Of a stretch of DNA of 37,517 bases, positions 12,108-37,145 are shown one piece after another. A program made the position numbers and the translations under genes. Under the pieces are notes generated by a model. It was not told where the DNA came from and made no database searches. It was given only the letters and a program-made list of their open reading frames with translations. This stretch comes from Trichodesmium sp. MAG_R03 (lineage in GTDB: Bacteria; Cyanobacteriota; Cyanobacteriia; Cyanobacteriales; Microcoleaceae). Location of the stretch: the NCBI GenBank assembly GCA_023356535.1, contig JAKQYF010000020.1, positions 1-37,517 of the forward strand. Reading direction: 5' to 3'. Each line of letters starts with the position of its first letter. Position 1 is the stretch's first letter.

Positions 12108-12378
12108 TAGGAATGGTCAGTCCAAAATACTGACTTTTTAAGGTTGAAGGACTGAAAACCAAGCACTTTTTTCTACAAAAAAAGCTAAGGCTTTTATGTT
12201 TCAATGCTTTTATATAGCTATGAGCACTCACATATTTGCATATTACTATCGTCTTTAAATGTAGTATAAATTTCTGTTACTATATACCGATACTTTCACA
12301 TATATTACATTAAAAGCAATTTATATTATGCAAACATACCAGCGCACTTTGCTATATTTAATCAGCAAGCCCTACTTA
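12108..12378 (+). repeat. Dispersed repeat R1, copy b, split by an inserted element
   Basis: The left part (12,108-12,214) and right part (12,357-12,378) together reproduce copies a and c. The two are separated by a 140-base element at a TA dinucleotide. Landmarks CCAAAATACTGACTTTTT, GACTGAAAACC, the T-run/A-run hairpin (AGC / GCT base) and ATTTAATCAGCAAGCCCTA are all present. Confidence 0.8.
12213..12356 (+). mobile_element. Small TA-flanked inverted-repeat element (MITE M1), copy A
   Basis: About 140 bases. The left end reads TATAGCTATGAGCACTCACA; the right end, reverse-complemented, reads TATAGCAAAGTGCGCTGGTA, giving imperfect terminal inverted repeats of about 30 bases. Two other copies lie at 21,808-21,949 and (inverted) 24,610-24,753. 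No coding capacity. It interrupts repeat R1 between TTTTATA and TATTTAATCAG, where uninterrupted R1 copies read TTTTATATTTTATCAG and TTTAATATTTAATCAG, so insertion duplicated TA. TA duplication is typical of IS630/Tc1-mariner elements. Confidence 0.85.
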
Positions 12379-21807: not shown

Positions 21808-21949
21808 TATAGCAATGAGCGCTCACATATTTACATATTACTATAGTATTTAAATGTAGTATAAATTCTGTTCGTATTATCAATACTTTCATATATATTA
21901 TATTAGTAGTATTTTGTAATATGCAAACATACCAGCACACTTTGCTATA
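21808..21949 (+). mobile_element. MITE M1, copy B
   Basis: 142 bases: left end TATAGCAATGAGCGCTCACA, interior TATTACTATAGTATTTAAAT, right end ACCAGCACACTTTGCTATA. It matches copies A and C along its length. A 69-codon minus-strand frame across it is meaningless. Confidence 0.85.
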
Positions 21950-22265: not shown

Positions 22266-23141
22266 ATGAACTCTGATCAAAAACGGAAGTGGGAAGACTC
22301 TTCACAACTCTATCGTCAAACTTTGAAGTTGAAGCCAGATTCGATTTGGGCTGATCATAACTTGGGTGTAGTTTTGGTTAATTTGGAGCAATTTGAAGAG
22401 GCTTATGAGTGTTTCAAGAAAGTTAGCTCGCTAAAATCTGATTTCTGGGATCTTAACAATAACAAGATCAAGTACACATTGGAGTTGCAACAGAACCTAG
22501 GGGATTATTTTATTCGAGCAGCAGCGCTAGGAAGATGCGGTAGCTGTGTATCTGCGAGTGATTACTTTGAATTCAGATTTTGCCTGGGGGCATTTTAATT
22601 TGGGGCTGACTTTGAGGAAGATGGGTAAGTTTGAGGAGGCTATTGCTCCCCTAACAAAGGGGATAGAGTTGAATCCTGAAATTACCCGTTTACATCAATT
22701 CCAAAAACCAGATTTGCTTTTAAAGTATAATCAAGTAGATAATTTAAAAACCGAGGCTCAAGTATGTTTAATTGCCTTTTTCCTTCCTCAGTTTCATTCT
22801 ATTCCAGAAAATGATGAATGGTGGGGTAAAGGGTTTACAGAGTGGACAAATGTTACCAAAGCAAAGCCACTGTTTGAAGGACATTATCAACCAAAACGAC
22901 CTACTGATTTAGGATTTTACGATTTGCGCTTGCTAGAAGTGAGGGATGCCCAAGCAAAATTAGCAAGAAAGTATGTTGTTCATGGTTTCTGTTATTATTA
23001 CTATTGGTTTGCAGGTAAGAGATTATTAGATCGACTAATTGTTGAGATTTTACACAGTAAGCAACCTGATTTTCCTTTCTGTTTGTGTTGGGCTAATGAA
23101 AACTGGACTCGTCGTTGGGATGGTTTAGAACATAAAATTTT
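22266..23141 (+). pseudogene. TPR plus WbsX-type glycosyltransferase, frameshifted and truncated
   Basis: The front (from ATG 22,266) encodes TPR-like repeats (WADHNLGVVLVNLEQFEEAY). Near 22,532 one extra base shifts the frame, and the other frame resumes at once with [20 protein letters not shown] and [20 protein letters not shown], continuing the TPR array. From about 22,765 it is a WbsX/GH99-like domain: [55 protein letters not shown] and [13 protein letters not shown]. This domain is about 330 residues in full-length relatives, but here it ends after about 120 where AGGACTTACGCA begins at 23,143. So the gene is dead twice over, unless the frameshift is a sequencing error. It probably served surface polysaccharide synthesis. 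Confidence 0.85.
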
Positions 23142-23142
23142 C

Positions 23143-23243
23143 AGGACTTACGCAAAGACACTATATATAGCGCATGACAATTTTGACGAACTTCACTATA
23201 GTCACGTGTAATACAGCTAACGCCACGCTCCGCGAACGCCTAA
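23143..23243 (+). repeat. Single left end of element Z plus CGCGAACGCC-type repeat
   Basis: AGGACTTACGCAAAG at 23,143 equals the left end of element Z copy 1, with ACTATATATAGCG resembling its interior, but no right end follows. Further on, GCTAACGCCACGCTCCGCGA (about 23,216-23,235) matches a short repeat common in many cyanobacterial genomes. The combination marks the break point of the WbsX gene. Confidence 0.55.
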
Positions 23244-23265: not shown

Positions 23266-23359
23266 TATAGTCATTCCGAATAAGAATGGGATACTTTTTT
23301 AGCGAAAAACCCTTTCACAGCAAGAAAATCTTGTCTCAATCTAAATCAGAATGACTATA
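23266..23359 (+). mobile_element. Small element M3, copy X
   Basis: 94 bases with ends TATAGTCATTCCGAATAAGA and TCTAAATCAGAATGACTATA (terminal inverted repeat TATAGTCATTC). It aligns over its whole length with 24,283-24,375, including CAGCAAGAAA and TCTCAATCTAAAT. TA at each border is compatible with TA-targeting. Non-coding. Confidence 0.75.
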
Positions 23360-23388: not shown

Positions 23389-24300
23389 TTGCATACAGCT
23401 ATAAACTTGTTACGTAATTTACCTATTCAAACACAAGAACATCTAAATCAGTTGACTAATGAGCTGAAACTGAGAGTTAAAAATCTACAAAGAAGTATAG
23501 AATTATTAATTAAAGAGATTGAATTAAATATAAATAAAACCGTTTTCTCATTCTTAATTCAAGATGTTAAATTAAGTAATCAAGATTGCTATCCTATTTG
23601 TTTTGATGCTCCTGTTATTAATGCTAAGTTTCACCAAGATAAGTACTTAAATATTTCTGGGTGGTGTTTCAGTAATTGTGGTGAAAAAGTAAAAAAAATA
23701 AAAATATGTAGGTCTAGTTATATTGTTTTAGCCACTTTACCAGTCAGGAATTACCGTCATGATGTTGGTAAAGTTTATCCACAATGTAAACATTTGGATG
23801 TAGGATTTAATGGTGCTATTAAGGCCGCTAATTTATTGGCTGATGACAAACAATATACTAATGTAAAACTCAAAGAACTCGTGTACGTTTCTAGTCCTCG
23901 AACAAGGTGTCTGTGTTCTGGTTATTGGATATTCGATTATTTGCGCCAGTTTTGGGCAAACTCAAATGATTATTCAAAGCCTAAAAATAAATTTAGGAAA
24001 ATTTATATTAGTCGTGAAAAAACATGGAAACGAAACATCTTAAATGAAGATGATGTTTGGTCATTTCTTGATAGTTTTGGCTTTGAAAAGATTATTGCAG
24101 AAGAAAAATCAATTTCAGAAATAGCACAAATATTTTATGAGGCATCACATATCGTTGGACCCCATGGAACTGGCTTTACAAATATAATATTTTGTCAGAA
24201 AAACACAAGAGTGATGGAGTTCTATTCTGAGCATATCACAAACGATTACAGAAATATTTGCCATCAATTGGGTTTTAAGTATTATAGTTATTTCAAATAA
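23389..24300 (+). pseudogene. GT61-family glycosyltransferase, truncated between two M3 elements
   Basis: The open frame (303 codons, TTG start) has an N-terminal coiled-coil (TQEHLNQLTNELKLRVKNLQ), then a beta-rich module with YLNISGWCFSN as seen beside some glycosyltransferases. It ends with a GT61 catalytic C-terminus: KIYISREKTWKRNILNEDDV, FGFEKIIAEEKSISEIAQIF and SHIVGPHGTGFTNIIF. The upstream frame is open (YKALSGAYSL) back into element X, so the true start is lost. The last codons (YSYFK stop) lie inside element Y, so the stop comes from the element. The early GT61 domain also looks shortened. If translated it would be a partial enzyme. It follows the broken WbsX gene on the same strand and was probably its operon partner. 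Confidence 0.7.
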
Positions 24301-24375
24301 AAATGAAACACTTTTTCTGCTGAAACTTAGTCATAGCAAGAAATAGTTATCTCAATCTAAATTAAAATGACTATA
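24283..24375 (+). mobile_element. Small element M3, copy Y, at the 3' end of the GT61 gene
   Basis: 93 bases from TATAGTTATTTCAAATAAAA to AAATTAAAATGACTATA, aligned end to end with copy X. It supplies the last residues and stop codon of the preceding open frame. Confidence 0.75.
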
Positions 24376-24388
24376 TGTTTTCCAAGGA

Positions 24389-24517
24389 ATGAATAAAAAC
24401 AAAGAAAAGCTATCTCTAAACTCAATCAAAAATAAGAGAAGGTGTCAAATTAATATTGAGCCTATTTACATACCAATAGATGAACTTCACGAGTCCTTTG
24501 ATCGTTTCCTTCCATAG
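24389..24517 (+). pseudogene. Short open frame, possibly the detached GT61 C-terminus
   Basis: A 42-codon frame starting MNKNKEKLSLNSI and ending IYIPIDELHESFDRFLP. The ending resembles the closing beta-strand plus helix of GT61 enzymes (a V/I-D-x-x-x-L pattern), and it begins just after element Y, which cuts the GT61 gene. I infer it is the displaced tail of that gene. It could also be a chance frame. Confidence 0.35.
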
Positions 24518-24589
24518 TTATATAGAGTCTGGTTATACAATAGACTTGTGTGGAATTCAGCTAAAAAAGTAGTTAAAAGCCTTATTAAT

Positions 24590-24815
24590 TATAGCAATGA
24601 GCCCTGGCATATAGCAACGTGCGCTCGTATGTTTACATGGGACAAATTGCTACTAATATAGTACATGTGAAAGTATTGGTAATAGTAGCAGAAATTTGTA
24701 CTACATTTTCCAGACTATAGTAATATATAAATATGTGAGCACTCATTGCTATACTTGCTACTACTATTGTATTTAAGGGTAGTAAATACTCTGCTACATG
24801 AGCGATATTTTTCAT
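24590..24815 (+). mobile_element. Degenerate MITE M1, copy D, interrupted by copy C
   Basis: The left piece TATAGCAATGAGCCCTGGCA (24,590-24,609) and the right piece starting after 24,753, CTTGCTACTACTATTGTATT then TAAGGGTAGTAAATACTCTG, join to match the left half of copy B (TATAGCAATGAGCGCTCACA ... TATTACTATAGTATTTAAAT ... GTAGTATAAATTCTG). The right half has diverged. The gap is exactly filled by copy C. Confidence 0.6.
24610..24753 (-). mobile_element. MITE M1, copy C, inverted and nested in copy D
   Basis: Starts TATAGCAACGTGCGCTCGTA (the right end of copy B, inverted) and ends TGTGAGCACTCATTGCTATA. The full length matches copies A and B in reverse. It sits at a TA inside copy D. A 60-codon minus frame over it is spurious. 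Confidence 0.8.
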
Positions 24816-25429
24816 CTGTGCTAGAACTCCGTTCCCCTGTCGCGAGCAAACTCACCTTAAAGTTTGATATCTATTACCTGTAAACTTTTCTACCTGTATC
24901 TTGATATAGGGAGTAGGGGAATAGTAAAAATTAAGAATAATTAATACTAACTGGTTAATAATCATCAAAAAGATGATTTGGTCTGTGTTAATTACTTCAT
25001 AGTTGAAGTGTCGTTTAAGTAGGGCTAGCTGATTAATTCTCAAAGTATTGACACAAATTATACTCATAGCCAAATTAAGGAGTTTCAAAAAGGACCAGAA
25101 GTTCTGTGGCTCAAGCTCATGCATAGAAAGGATTTCCGCCATACCTAGGCCGAAAAATCAGGGGACAATTCTTACTACACCAGACCTGTTGACCAAGCCA
25201 TTTATCCGTGCCGACCTGCTTCCGTGTTTCTGTGCTGACCTGCAACAATCCTCACCCCATTTGAAAATCCATATCCTAACCCTAAGTATAGCATTGCTTA
25301 TGGGAATTGGTATTATAGACTCCCGCGTTGGACTTTGATTTAACAGACAACTAAAAAATCATAGTATTATGTGAGCGCGATCGCCACCTTCATGGAACCA
25401 AGCCTATCAAAGAAATAATTGATATCTTT
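24816..25429. other. Gene-free stretch with scattered repeat ends
   Basis: Two overlapping 96-codon frames (24,852-25,142 minus and 25,048-25,338 plus) have no recognisable content. Near 25,020-25,040 TAGGGCTAGCTGATTAATTC is a lone inverted right end of repeat R1. A HIP1 site lies at 25,376. The part near 25,140-25,330 is GC-richer, but no function is visible. Confidence 0.45.
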
Positions 25430-25905
25430 CGCCACTACGGAAAAACTTGAGGTAGTTCAAGTGCATCTGCATCTACACCCAATACAAAAATTATCAAATT
25501 CCTTGAGTCTTTGTCTGAGCCAATTTTTTCACACAAACCACCAACGTTCTATCTGATTAAAATCTAGGGATAATGGTGGTAAATACCAGATCTTACACTT
25601 GGCTTTGGCCACTAATTATTGAATATAAACTGATTTATGAAATGTTGTATTATCCAGTACGATAACTTGTCCCGGTTGTAATTTTGGTAGTCAACAATTT
25701 TCTAACCAGTTCTCAAACAAATCACGATCACAACTTCGGTGTAAATGCTAAAGAAACAAACATTTTTGATTGATTTATAGCTGCACAAAAACTTACTATC
25801 TCAGTTTTTTTTCCTAACTTCTAATGGTGGTACTCTTGTTCCAATTCTATATAACCATAGGGATAATCTTCTGGCTTATCTATTCTGGATTCATATACAT
25901 ATACA
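25430..25905 (-). pseudogene. IS630-family transposase remnant (catalytic half)
   Basis: The minus strand reads ESRIDKPEDYPYGYIELEQE, then KLGKKTEIVSFCAAINQSKM, DRDLFENWLENC, LPKLQPGQVIVLDNTTFHKS, LVAKAKCKIWYLPPLSLDFN, QIERWWFV and KNWLRQRLKEFDNF. This is the DDE half of an IS630 transposase, with Asp in VLDN and Glu in NQIE. It is broken by at least one frameshift (near 25,733) and several stops, including TGA codons where Trp would be expected. The N-terminal half is not found next to it. Together with the deleted copy at 14,053 it shows IS630 elements once lived here. Confidence 0.85.
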
Positions 25906-26158
25906 ATCTTTATATACAAAAATAATTTTGTGTACCTATTTAGGTATAGAAATGGTTACAAAACCATATCTACAATAGAGTTGTCGCTAAATAGAGGGAA
26001 AAATCGCTCCAACCTAGACAGAGCAATAATTTCAAGTTTTTTAACTTGCCAATAGCTACAATCTTTACAGAACAAGGTTTTTGGTGATTTTTAAGTTATA
26101 AAGCGACAAGTCTAATGATGTCAGTTTGACAATATTTTTGAGTTTATTCGACTGATTC

Positions 26159-26635
26159 CTAAGAATTACTGGTAGCTGTCAAACGTTGCTTTAATTCTGC
26201 TAAAGCATCAGCCCAACGAGGGTCAGGTTGAACTGCTTCATTATTACTAGAGCTAGGACTACTAGCAGTTTTAGATGATCCTCCTTTATCCTTGTCACGA
26301 CGAGATTTTTTACTTTTGCTAGTGTTGTTTTTAGTAATTGGTTTAGGTTCAGTCTCAGTATTTTCCGACTCACTCTTATTTTTAGAGCGAGGTAATGCTT
26401 TTTCAATCTTTAAAAGAGTTTCTCTAAACTGATAACCATTATACTTTTCAATAATGTGGTCAACTTGTTCATCATTTTTGACTGTTACAAAGCCAAAACC
26501 ACGACATTTACCAGTTTTGCGATCTGTGATCAATTTAGTGGTAACACTTTCACCTTCTTCCTTAAAAACTTCTTGCAATTCTTGACGTTCCATTACCTCT
26601 TTAGGTAAATTACCAATATATAAACGAATTGACAT
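26159..26635 (-). CDS. RNA-binding protein, single RRM (Rbp type)
   Basis: The product has 158 residues. One RNA recognition motif fills residues 3-82: RNP2 LYIGNLP (5-11) and RNP1 KCRGFGFV (43-50). It binds single-stranded RNA in the cytoplasm; cyanobacterial relatives are often cold-induced or involved in mRNA localisation. The C-terminal 75 residues are Ser/Lys/Asn-rich and disordered rather than Gly-rich, ending in a short helix-like block DPRWADALAELKQRL that also caps some longer cyanobacterial Rbp proteins. A strong Shine-Dalgarno, GGAGGAA, lies 7-8 bases upstream of the ATG. It is preceded by a long gene-free leader region. Confidence 0.93.
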   Translation of the reverse strand: MSIRLYIGNLPKEVMERQELQEVFKEEGESVTTKLITDRKTGKCRGFGFVTVKNDEQVDHIIEKYNGYQFRETLLKIEKALPRSKNKSESENTETEPKPITKNNTSKSKKSRRDKDKGGSSKTASSPSSSNNEAVQPDPRWADALAELKQRLTATSNS

Positions 26636-27414
26636 AGGAAAATTCCTCCAGACTTTGAATTTTACTTGTTTAAATTACAAAAAACTACAACTTAGTTAAC
26701 TGAGATTTATTGAACACAAAACAAGAGCAGAATCAAAAAAAACTGCTCAGACTTTGAAATGTAAAAAACTTTGACAAATAGTTATATTCATTGTTACTAC
26801 AAATGAAATTATTTCCCATTTCCCATTTTCCATTTTGGTCAACTTTGGCAAATAATTTTATTGTGTCAGGTTTTTCTTTAAACTTTTTGCTCATCAATCA
26901 ACAAACAAAACTATAGGCCTTGGTTAATTACTTTTTTTGATATTGATTTGCTAAACGTTGATCATCCAACTTTATAAATATCACTTTAAAGCCTGCTAAA
27001 CTCAAACAACCCAATTGCTCATATGATAACTAACTAGGCAGAATTAATTACCTAATTTGATTGCCAAATCACTGGGAAAATATGCTTTTCAGCTTCAAAG
27101 TATTTGTAATTAATCCTGCATAACTACTTATTAATTTAAAGTATACTTCCTACTGGGTAAAGACTAAAACTTTAATCATAATATTTTACTTATTTTTCAA
27201 CTAAACCGGCAATGCTTACAGCTTATCTTTCCAGCGGTCAGTTATTGACCAGTATAAACTTATCATAATCCTAAGTCAATATCTACTATTTTTCTTAAAT
27301 TTAACTATTTAGCGAAAAATTGGGTTTAAAGCCTCGCCCATAAGCGGGCGACTATTTTAGTTGATTTCTTTTCACAGGTCATGTTATGATGTTTTTTAAT
27401 TCACAAGAAATATA
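26636..27414. promoter_or_regulatory. Long region upstream of the RRM gene
   Basis: Nearly 780 bases without a credible gene. It should contain the promoter and 5' leader of the RRM gene. A short tandem stretch of CATTTCCCATTTTCCATTTT type lies near 26,815-26,835. No specific regulatory motif can be assigned. Confidence 0.35.
27334..27351 (-). terminator. Hairpin downstream of the small membrane protein gene
   Basis: TCGCCC (27,334-27,339) pairs with GGGCGA (27,346-27,351). On the minus strand the stem is followed by AGGCTTTAAACCCAATTTTT. It lies 65 bases past the stop of the small minus-strand frame, so it may terminate it. Confidence 0.35.
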
Positions 27415-35895: not shown

Positions 35896-36098
35896 AGTTA
35901 GAAATCAGAAGTCATCTCTGGCTGAGTTGAAGCAATATATCAATTCTAACACATAATTATAGCACTACAAAAAGGTGTTAGGAAATTAATACAATTGAAA
36001 TTTTTTACAACCTATAGTTTTGATTTGAACTGATAGCTAAATGCTTGAAGCTATACTATAAAATTAAAAAGTATATCTACACAATTACTAAGAAAAAA

Positions 36099-36629
36099 AT
36101 GTTATTAACTACAGAATTATTTATCGCTTTTAAATGGTTTGGTATTGCTACAATTGGATTTTTTCTTTTGACAACTCTTGGCTTTATTTTGAATTGGGAA
36201 TTTAGATTTAGATTGGTGGGAATAACAGGTTTTATGGGAGTTTTAACTGTTGGTTTATTTGGCTTAAGTTTAGGATTATTCAACCGGGTAGAAATTCCAG
36301 GAGCAGTTCCATATACATTAGTTTATGATAATGGTGCAACTCAAACAGTAATAGCTGTTTCTCCTACTATTACAGAACCGGAATTAGCAGCAACTATGGA
36401 ACAAGCAGCAGGAGATTTATTTTCTCTAGGTCGTTTAGGTGGAGAGGATAAATTAACTATTAGAGTCAGAACTATTATTCATCCAGAAGAAGGTGTTTCT
36501 CAACCACTTTATTTAGGGAAGGTGAAGCGTTCTTTATATCAACGGGAAGATGAAAATATAGATATTAAAATATTTCCTGAAACTTTGGCAAAGTTGGTAG
36601 ATTATCAGAGTCATAATTTGGAGAGTTAA
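36099..36629 (+). CDS. ycf51: Ycf51 family protein
   Basis: 176 residues from ATG 36,099. Two membrane helices fill the front: FKWFGIATIGFFLLTTLGFI (about 8-27) and VGITGFMGVLTVGLFGLSLG. A soluble domain follows: IPGAVPYTLVYDNGATQTVI, ELAATMEQAAGDLFSLGRLG and TIRVRTIIHPEEGVSQPLYL. This matches the conserved Ycf51 protein of cyanobacteria and some plastids, whose function is unknown. An upstream TTG (36,045) would add 18 Lys/Tyr-rich residues; I prefer the ATG because family members start next to the first helix. A 54-base piece of its coding sequence recurs downstream at 36,807. Confidence 0.88.
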   Translation: MLLTTELFIAFKWFGIATIGFFLLTTLGFILNWEFRFRLVGITGFMGVLTVGLFGLSLGLFNRVEIPGAVPYTLVYDNGATQTVIAVSPTITEPELAATMEQAAGDLFSLGRLGGEDKLTIRVRTIIHPEEGVSQPLYLGKVKRSLYQREDENIDIKIFPETLAKLVDYQSHNLES

Positions 36630-36653: not shown

Positions 36654-37145
36654 AATGGGCTGAAAAGTCTTTCTATTTAATGTAGGTTGGGTAGAACGAA
36701 GTGAAACCCAACAAAGCTTAATTATTGTTGGCTTTTGTCCCTCAGGTACGCTTATTAATGTTGGCCCTAGAAGAAGGAAGCGACACCAAACAAAACTTAA
36801 TTTTAGTCGTTTAGGTGGAGAGGATAAATTAACTATTAGAGTCAGAACTATTATTCATCCAATGGGTTGAAAAAGTCTTTCTATGTCATATAGGTTGGGT
36901 AGAACGAAGTGAAACCCAACAAAGCTTGATTATGGCTGAGTTTTGTCCCTCAAGTACCCTTATTAATGTCGGCCCTTGTAGTTGGGTTTTGTCCCTCAAC
37001 CCAACCTACCCTTATTGCATCATTTTAGCTATGTCAATAACTTAACTATATCAATGTCGGCTTTTGTAGAAGGAAGTGAAACCCAACAAAACTTAATTGT
37101 AGTCGGGTTTTGTATCTCAACCCAACCTAATCTTATTATACCATT
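36654..37145 (+). repeat. Array of AACGAAGTGAAACCCAAC-type repeats with a ycf51 fragment
   Basis: Unit 1 (36,654-36,767) and unit 2 (36,861-36,975) share AAGTCTTTCTAT, TAGGTTGGGTAGAACGAAGT, GAAACCCAACAAAGCTT, TTTTGTCCCTCA and TTATTAATGT-GGCCCT. A more degenerate unit lies at 37,050-37,130. TTGGGT and ACCCAA arms make each unit a hairpin. Between units 1 and 2, bases 36,807-36,860 are identical over 54 bases to 36,431-36,484 inside ycf51. The stretch CCTTATTGCATCATTTTAGC near 37,009 recurs as TCTTATTATACCATTTTAGC near 37,132. No gene in the array. Confidence 0.85.

Follow-up and report, generated by a model that had tools for sequence, protein, structure and literature searches.

The locus studied here lies on a contig of Trichodesmium sp. 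MAG_R03. The window, that is, the whole stretch of DNA analysed (37,517 nucleotides), holds three copies, A, B and C, of a short mobile element called M1, and copy C is surrounded by other mobile sequences. The 20 bases on the left of C and the sequence on its right are referred to as D. The features discussed below are the following:

12213-12356, plus strand: M1 copy A.
21808-21949, plus strand: M1 copy B.
24590-24609, minus strand: by homology, the outer 20 bp of the right terminal repeat, on the side away from the transposase, in an IS630-family relic (left part of D); matches position 1 to 18 or 23 in four complete IS copies.
24610-24753, minus strand: C, an M1 MITE copy with TA at each end (target duplication), core at about 24612-24751; 83% identity to copy B.
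24752-24869, minus strand: rest of the IS630 right end, by homology (right part of D), starting at the target TA 24752-24753; matched by the IS-end HMM in unjoined sequence.
24870-25021, unstranded: first part of an M2 MITE, a second insertion in the IS relic, probably at TA; 75-83% identity to seven copies in three relatives.
25022-25288, unstranded: M3 element nested in M2, with ends uncertain by a few bp, TAAGTA being common to both sides; 72-76% identity to 8 copies in one congener.
25289-25315, unstranded: last part of the M2 MITE; 172-bp alignment across the M3 join in L115 (E 3e-35).
25315-25911, minus strand: remains of an IS630 transposase gene, namely its C-terminal DDE part, and of the region downstream of it, interrupted by several stops; 77-84% nucleotide identity to four complete IS copies.

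Rfam gave no match at gathering score in the window. Beside the glycosyltransferase-61 ORF at 23389-24300 there are two copies of a ~94-bp repeat (23266-23359 and 24283-24375), and the stop codon of the ORF lies within the downstream copy. This ORF is next to 22546-23211, where a WbsX glycosyltransferase domain is matched only to position 125 of the 350 positions of the model. The counterparts of 22669-23078 and 23543-23859 lie side by side on the orthologous contig L062, which means ~464 extra bases for the window at this point. Elsewhere, two identical 56-bp direct repeats (36430-36485 and 36806-36861) are found 376 bp apart, the first of them overlapping the 3' part of the ORF at 36045-36629.

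M1 is a MITE of ~142 bp that has 40 matches in the genome of the window (40 scored among 129 candidates, with copy B as the query). It was detected in eight of the 20 genomes searched: this one, six congeners and G012, which belongs to the same family. C is an inverted full-length copy that occupies exactly 24610-24753; no ORF of at least 100 aa overlaps it, and M1 is short, multi-copy and lacks a transposase of its own. TA is present at both extremities in 35 of the 40 copies of this genome. Other arrangements were also observed: in the congener G006 two M1 copies directly abut each other (L072:415-697), the copies L078 and L070, from the genome of the window and a congener, are split at about position 25-29 by other DNA, and copy L045 has a 29-bp displaced end that was detected by BLAST.

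The sequences on which C lies were compared with IS630-family elements from related genomes. The transposases of the relatives L064, L060 and L065 match PF13358 (DDE_3), and the HTH frame of L064 matches PF01710 (HTH_Tnp_IS630, 51.4). With NF033545 (transpos_IS630, cut-off 100), L064 and L060 reach 141.5 and 128.9 bits, the L065 fragment remaining below the cut-off (68.9). A scan of the named genomes with the L064 protein retrieved 27 cyanobacterial loci. When up to 4 mismatches are allowed, the repeat TATAGCAAYGWGCGCTGGY borders ten of these loci, five of them on both sides; the ten come from records of Trichodesmium and Okeania and from a single Microcoleaceae MAG. The reference set consists of four complete copies, found via the L064 protein and 82-87% identical to it. 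They are 1,370-1,459 bp long and carry the terminal repeat at both ends; TA stands at both of their outermost ends in three of the four, L085 having TG at one. In two of them (L082 and L083) the HTH part (124 aa) and the DDE part (184 aa) lie in overlapping frames, with a -1 shift at an A-run, and this overlap may be a programmed frameshift.

In the window, homology to these elements starts with a right end at 24590, extends past 24815 up to 24869, where it breaks, and resumes after the second insertion at 25315. The left end was not found in the window and homology stops at 25911. Matches to the transposase protein at 25487-25777 and 25689-25910 contain internal stops and are read on the minus strand. 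The genome as a whole has eight transposase matches, of which two are the relic itself, and its 93%-complete assembly yielded no transposase of this clade that is intact. The sole stop-free match is 51% identical and its locus lacks such a terminal repeat within 4 mismatches.

The initial annotation had read D as a degenerate M1 left half made of the left 20 bases and the sequence after C. The alignment behind this claim was confirmed. After removal of 24610-24753, the remainder matches an HMM built from 39 M1 copies of this genome (C omitted) with 21.6 bits. The excised interval holds TA at both ends, one of which is the target's; once the cut is corrected to keep one TA, the same model gives 27.1 bits, the best join. 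Dinucleotide shuffles of the whole joined piece gave any match in just 142 of 2,000 cases, with a maximum of 8.3 bits, and when the right flank only was shuffled and the left 20 bases were kept (n = 2,000) the maximum was 17.9 bits. The rejoined flanks therefore align with M1 better than shuffled sequence does.

Two readings of D were weighed against this background. One is that D is an older, decayed M1 copy and C a younger insertion, in which case identity to one consensus would give their ages. The rejoined alignment, far above the shuffles, speaks for it, and so does plain identity: D is on average 72% identical to the M1 copies and the best of them (67/87, 77%) exceeds the three weakest IS ends, the nine ends of the IS-end HMM ranging from 74 to 82%. 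Yet plain identity is less sharp than the HMMs, and these favor the IS. When both models are applied to one stretch of D (83 nt), the IS-end HMM built from nine copies yields 61.7 bits and the M1 HMM 27.0; a longer piece gives 72.4 and 29.9 bits, respectively. Among the 13 diagnostic columns in which the IS and M1 consensuses differ, D is IS-like in 10, M1-like in two and neither in one; its left part carries CTGGC like the IS ends, as opposed to CTCAC in the M1 consensus. With the IS-end HMM, the scores of three known IS ends are 112.4, 105.4 and 94.3 bits (the first two being members of its training set and L144 lying outside of it), and with the M1 HMM they are 26.4, 22.2 and 18.9 bits; since these ends and D score alike with the latter, the M1 score of D is typical of an IS end. 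Moreover, the unjoined right flank (24751-24869) matches positions 20-139 of the IS-end HMM (49.6 bits, E 1.2e-14), and the homology runs on into IS-specific sequence and the transposase relic. At E <= 0.001, the M1 HMM found A, B and C and no other place in the whole window. The view that D is an M1 copy was thus rejected in the light of the HMM scores, the diagnostic columns and the continuation into IS sequence, and we regard that reading of the locus as highly improbable.

The IS-end HMM was derived from 12 inspected ends. Three of them were omitted (L080, L084 and L110, the last on the transposase 5' side according to the reading of its sequence) as their similarity to D is limited to the outer 21-33 bp. 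L098, the fifth locus flanked by the repeat on each side (spacing 938 bp), contributed to the HMM and is not among the complete reference copies; L095 seems to be the same end as L094 and was not used.

Given the HMM scores, the match of the unjoined flank and the IS homology that resumes at 25315-25911 with stops, D is, as judged by homology, the transposase-distal end of a dead IS630-family copy of ~1.4 kb that has been invaded by C. Consequently, the nesting of C proposed in the initial annotation and the relative order that follows from it still stand, the older element having a terminal repeat of the same kind, but this older element is not an M1 copy.

The place where C entered the relic can be compared with the same place in other IS ends. 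Among the 12 ends inspected, nine have an uninterrupted TA there, at columns 21-22 in eight of them and, owing to an offset of one base, one column later in L065; the other three are L061 and L080, with TC, and L094, which differs. A duplication of the target TA fits these observations, since the target has a single TA and C is bordered by TA on either side. ISY100, a cyanobacterial member of IS630, targets TA and duplicates it in vitro, according to excerpts of PMC2170065. A search of the congeners with 24200-25900 retrieved long matches downstream of D and some contigs with an M1-like end a few hundred bases off; none of the six congeners searched has this same locus with D uninterrupted, and at the orthologous place in the congener G005 the whole D region and C are absent. 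The empty site is for these reasons a paralogous one. For the left flank (24376-24612), nothing but short matches (25-54 bp) turned up within the genus. Five matches to the right flank (24751-24870) were obtained from four congeners; three of these matches are IS ends (L142, L143 and L144), and the other two (L145 and L146) are matched by neither the IS-end nor the M1 model. In the IS end at L144:1489-1608 (G004), the match to the IS-end HMM begins at position 17, and the outer 16 bases may be cut off or displaced.

It could be argued that C and the IS relic were brought together by a rearrangement or a misassembly and not by transposition, as the assembly is a draft of 486 contigs and repeats are where assemblies err. 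Nevertheless, the sequences on either side of C follow directly on one another in the IS (positions 1-20, then from about 20), and C is complete and has TA at both ends, a register that is unlikely to survive a chance join. A junction of this kind appears extremely improbable, and the insertion of C by transposition into the right end of the relic is retained. C was presumably moved by an IS630-type transposase.

The relic was interrupted a second time. The 445 bp between 24869 and 25315 are an M2 MITE that is itself interrupted by M3; in six of the seven loci with M2 (L115-L120) the alignments cross the join obtained by skipping M3, and that of L121 ends just short of it. There are accordingly three levels at one locus (24870-25315), M3 (about 267 bp) lying within M2 and M2 within the IS630 relic. 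The target of M2 can be recognized in other copies: AAGTTTGATAGACTC, which includes TA, is exact in four of the nine IS ends of the HMM and has TA or GC in place of GA in three more, the pattern not being found in the remaining two. An insertion at TA with duplication of TA is only probable for M2, whose left edge has no clean terminal repeat. The tail of M2, TGGGAATTGGTATTA, also occurs at the orthologous place in G005, where the sequence corresponding to 25298-26790 is 90% identical; as the tail is present there, M2 probably entered the relic before the species of the window and G005 parted. However, L061, a different IS copy of G005, has an insert of its own that ends with TTGGTATTA at the same place, so the tail could instead have been carried within an IS subfamily.

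The initial annotation had also suggested a relative age series based on percent identity to the family consensus. With 91.6% identity to a consensus made from the other 39 M1 copies, C ranks 16th of 40 (range 87.1-93.7%), this consensus giving a slight advantage to the 39 copies that it includes over C, which it omits. For D, identity to the consensus of nine IS ends is 85.5%; these ends stem from different species and themselves reach 72.9-94.2% when each is left out in turn. C and D are thus measured on different yardsticks and both fall within the ranges of their families; percent identity was rejected as a measure of age. Nesting alone gives an order: the IS preceded C and M2, and M2 preceded M3. 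The order of C and M2 cannot be set at this locus, and the comparison with G005 cannot date C because both D and C are absent there.

Taken together, the locus is with high probability made up of stacked mobile elements, the host being a cyanobacterium of the Trichodesmium/Okeania group: a dead IS630 copy forms the base, C sits in its right end, and M2 and then M3 were added. The base layer is an IS630-family (Tc1/mariner-like) insertion sequence of ~1.4 kb with the terminal repeat TATAGCAATGAGCGCTGG, now dead, its transposase gene being broken and its far end missing beyond 25911. C entered it inverted, at a TA starting with base 21 of the right end, and duplicated that TA. M2, from another MITE family, separately entered the relic at 24869/24870, and M3 later entered M2. 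Such an arrangement is ordinary mobile-element stratigraphy.

The resemblance between D and M1 raises the question of the origin of M1. The left part of M1 aligns better to the right than to the left end of the IS in all four complete copies (70/88 identical with L081), and its right part is closer to the IS left end in three of the four comparisons. In 25 of 39 M1 copies the left end has GAG, like most IS right ends, and the right end GTG, like the left ends of the four complete copies; the exceptions are the right end of L098, which has GTG, and L110, which has GAG and is read as lying on the transposase 5' side. The simplest reading of these similarities is that M1 would be an internal-deletion derivative of this IS630 group, from which we infer that it arose. 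On this view the element that C entered, at a TA lying 20 bp inside its terminus, would belong to the family from which M1 probably descends. This would name a likely transposase source group for an abundant MITE of Trichodesmium and Okeania, and the locus supplies an empty site that, although paralogous, is clean and shows its TA. The case further illustrates how a short terminal match can make a parent IS resemble an old MITE copy, so that an age series based on divergence breaks.

The presence of C in an end of its probable parent may suggest that the IS630-family machinery prefers its own ends as targets and that self-insertion is a regular outcome. One of the 40 M1 copies of this genome does sit in a family end, two M1 copies abut in L072, and the end at L144, matched from position 17 on, may be interrupted as well. 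Yet the other 39 M1 copies have no second M1 or IS-end match in the fetched flank (up to 400 bp) at E <= 0.001, a threshold that misses short fragments such as the displaced end of L045. Furthermore, the family makes up roughly 0.1-0.4% of the genome, so that, among 40 to about 130 insertions, chance alone should produce between 0.1 and 0.5 self-hits. Since that many are expected by this rough estimate, one self-hit needs no special cause, and a general preference for own ends seems highly improbable. One may go further and propose a self-limiting loop, in which M1 and its IS630 parent favor TAs within their own terminal repeats and the MITE disables its own transposase sources; this would explain why only broken parents are found in a genome full of M1. 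We consider such a loop very unlikely, if marginally less so, and retain the ordinary stack of insertions described above.

A search of the literature, of partial coverage, found no description of this element in Trichodesmium; its absence there is unproven. Among known systems, ISY100 and the IS630-Tc1-mariner group resemble the relatives of the base element in the DDE_3 and HTH_Tnp_IS630 domains, in the terminal inverted repeats and in the TA at insertion sites. In contrast, the copy in the window is dead and interrupted, and two of the complete copies have two overlapping frames at an A-run, whereas PMC2170065, on ISY100 of Synechocystis, mentions single transposase genes. M1 resembles the type I MITEs, defined in the paper on Anabaena sp. 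90 as sharing their repeats with an IS: it is short, non-coding and present in many copies, has terminal inverted repeats and also occurs in congeners. The MITEs of Anabaena sp. 90 itself were classed as type II in PMC3542288, since they showed no evident similarity to the inverted repeats of the IS there; unlike these, M1 has repeats in common with an IS630 group that could be identified.
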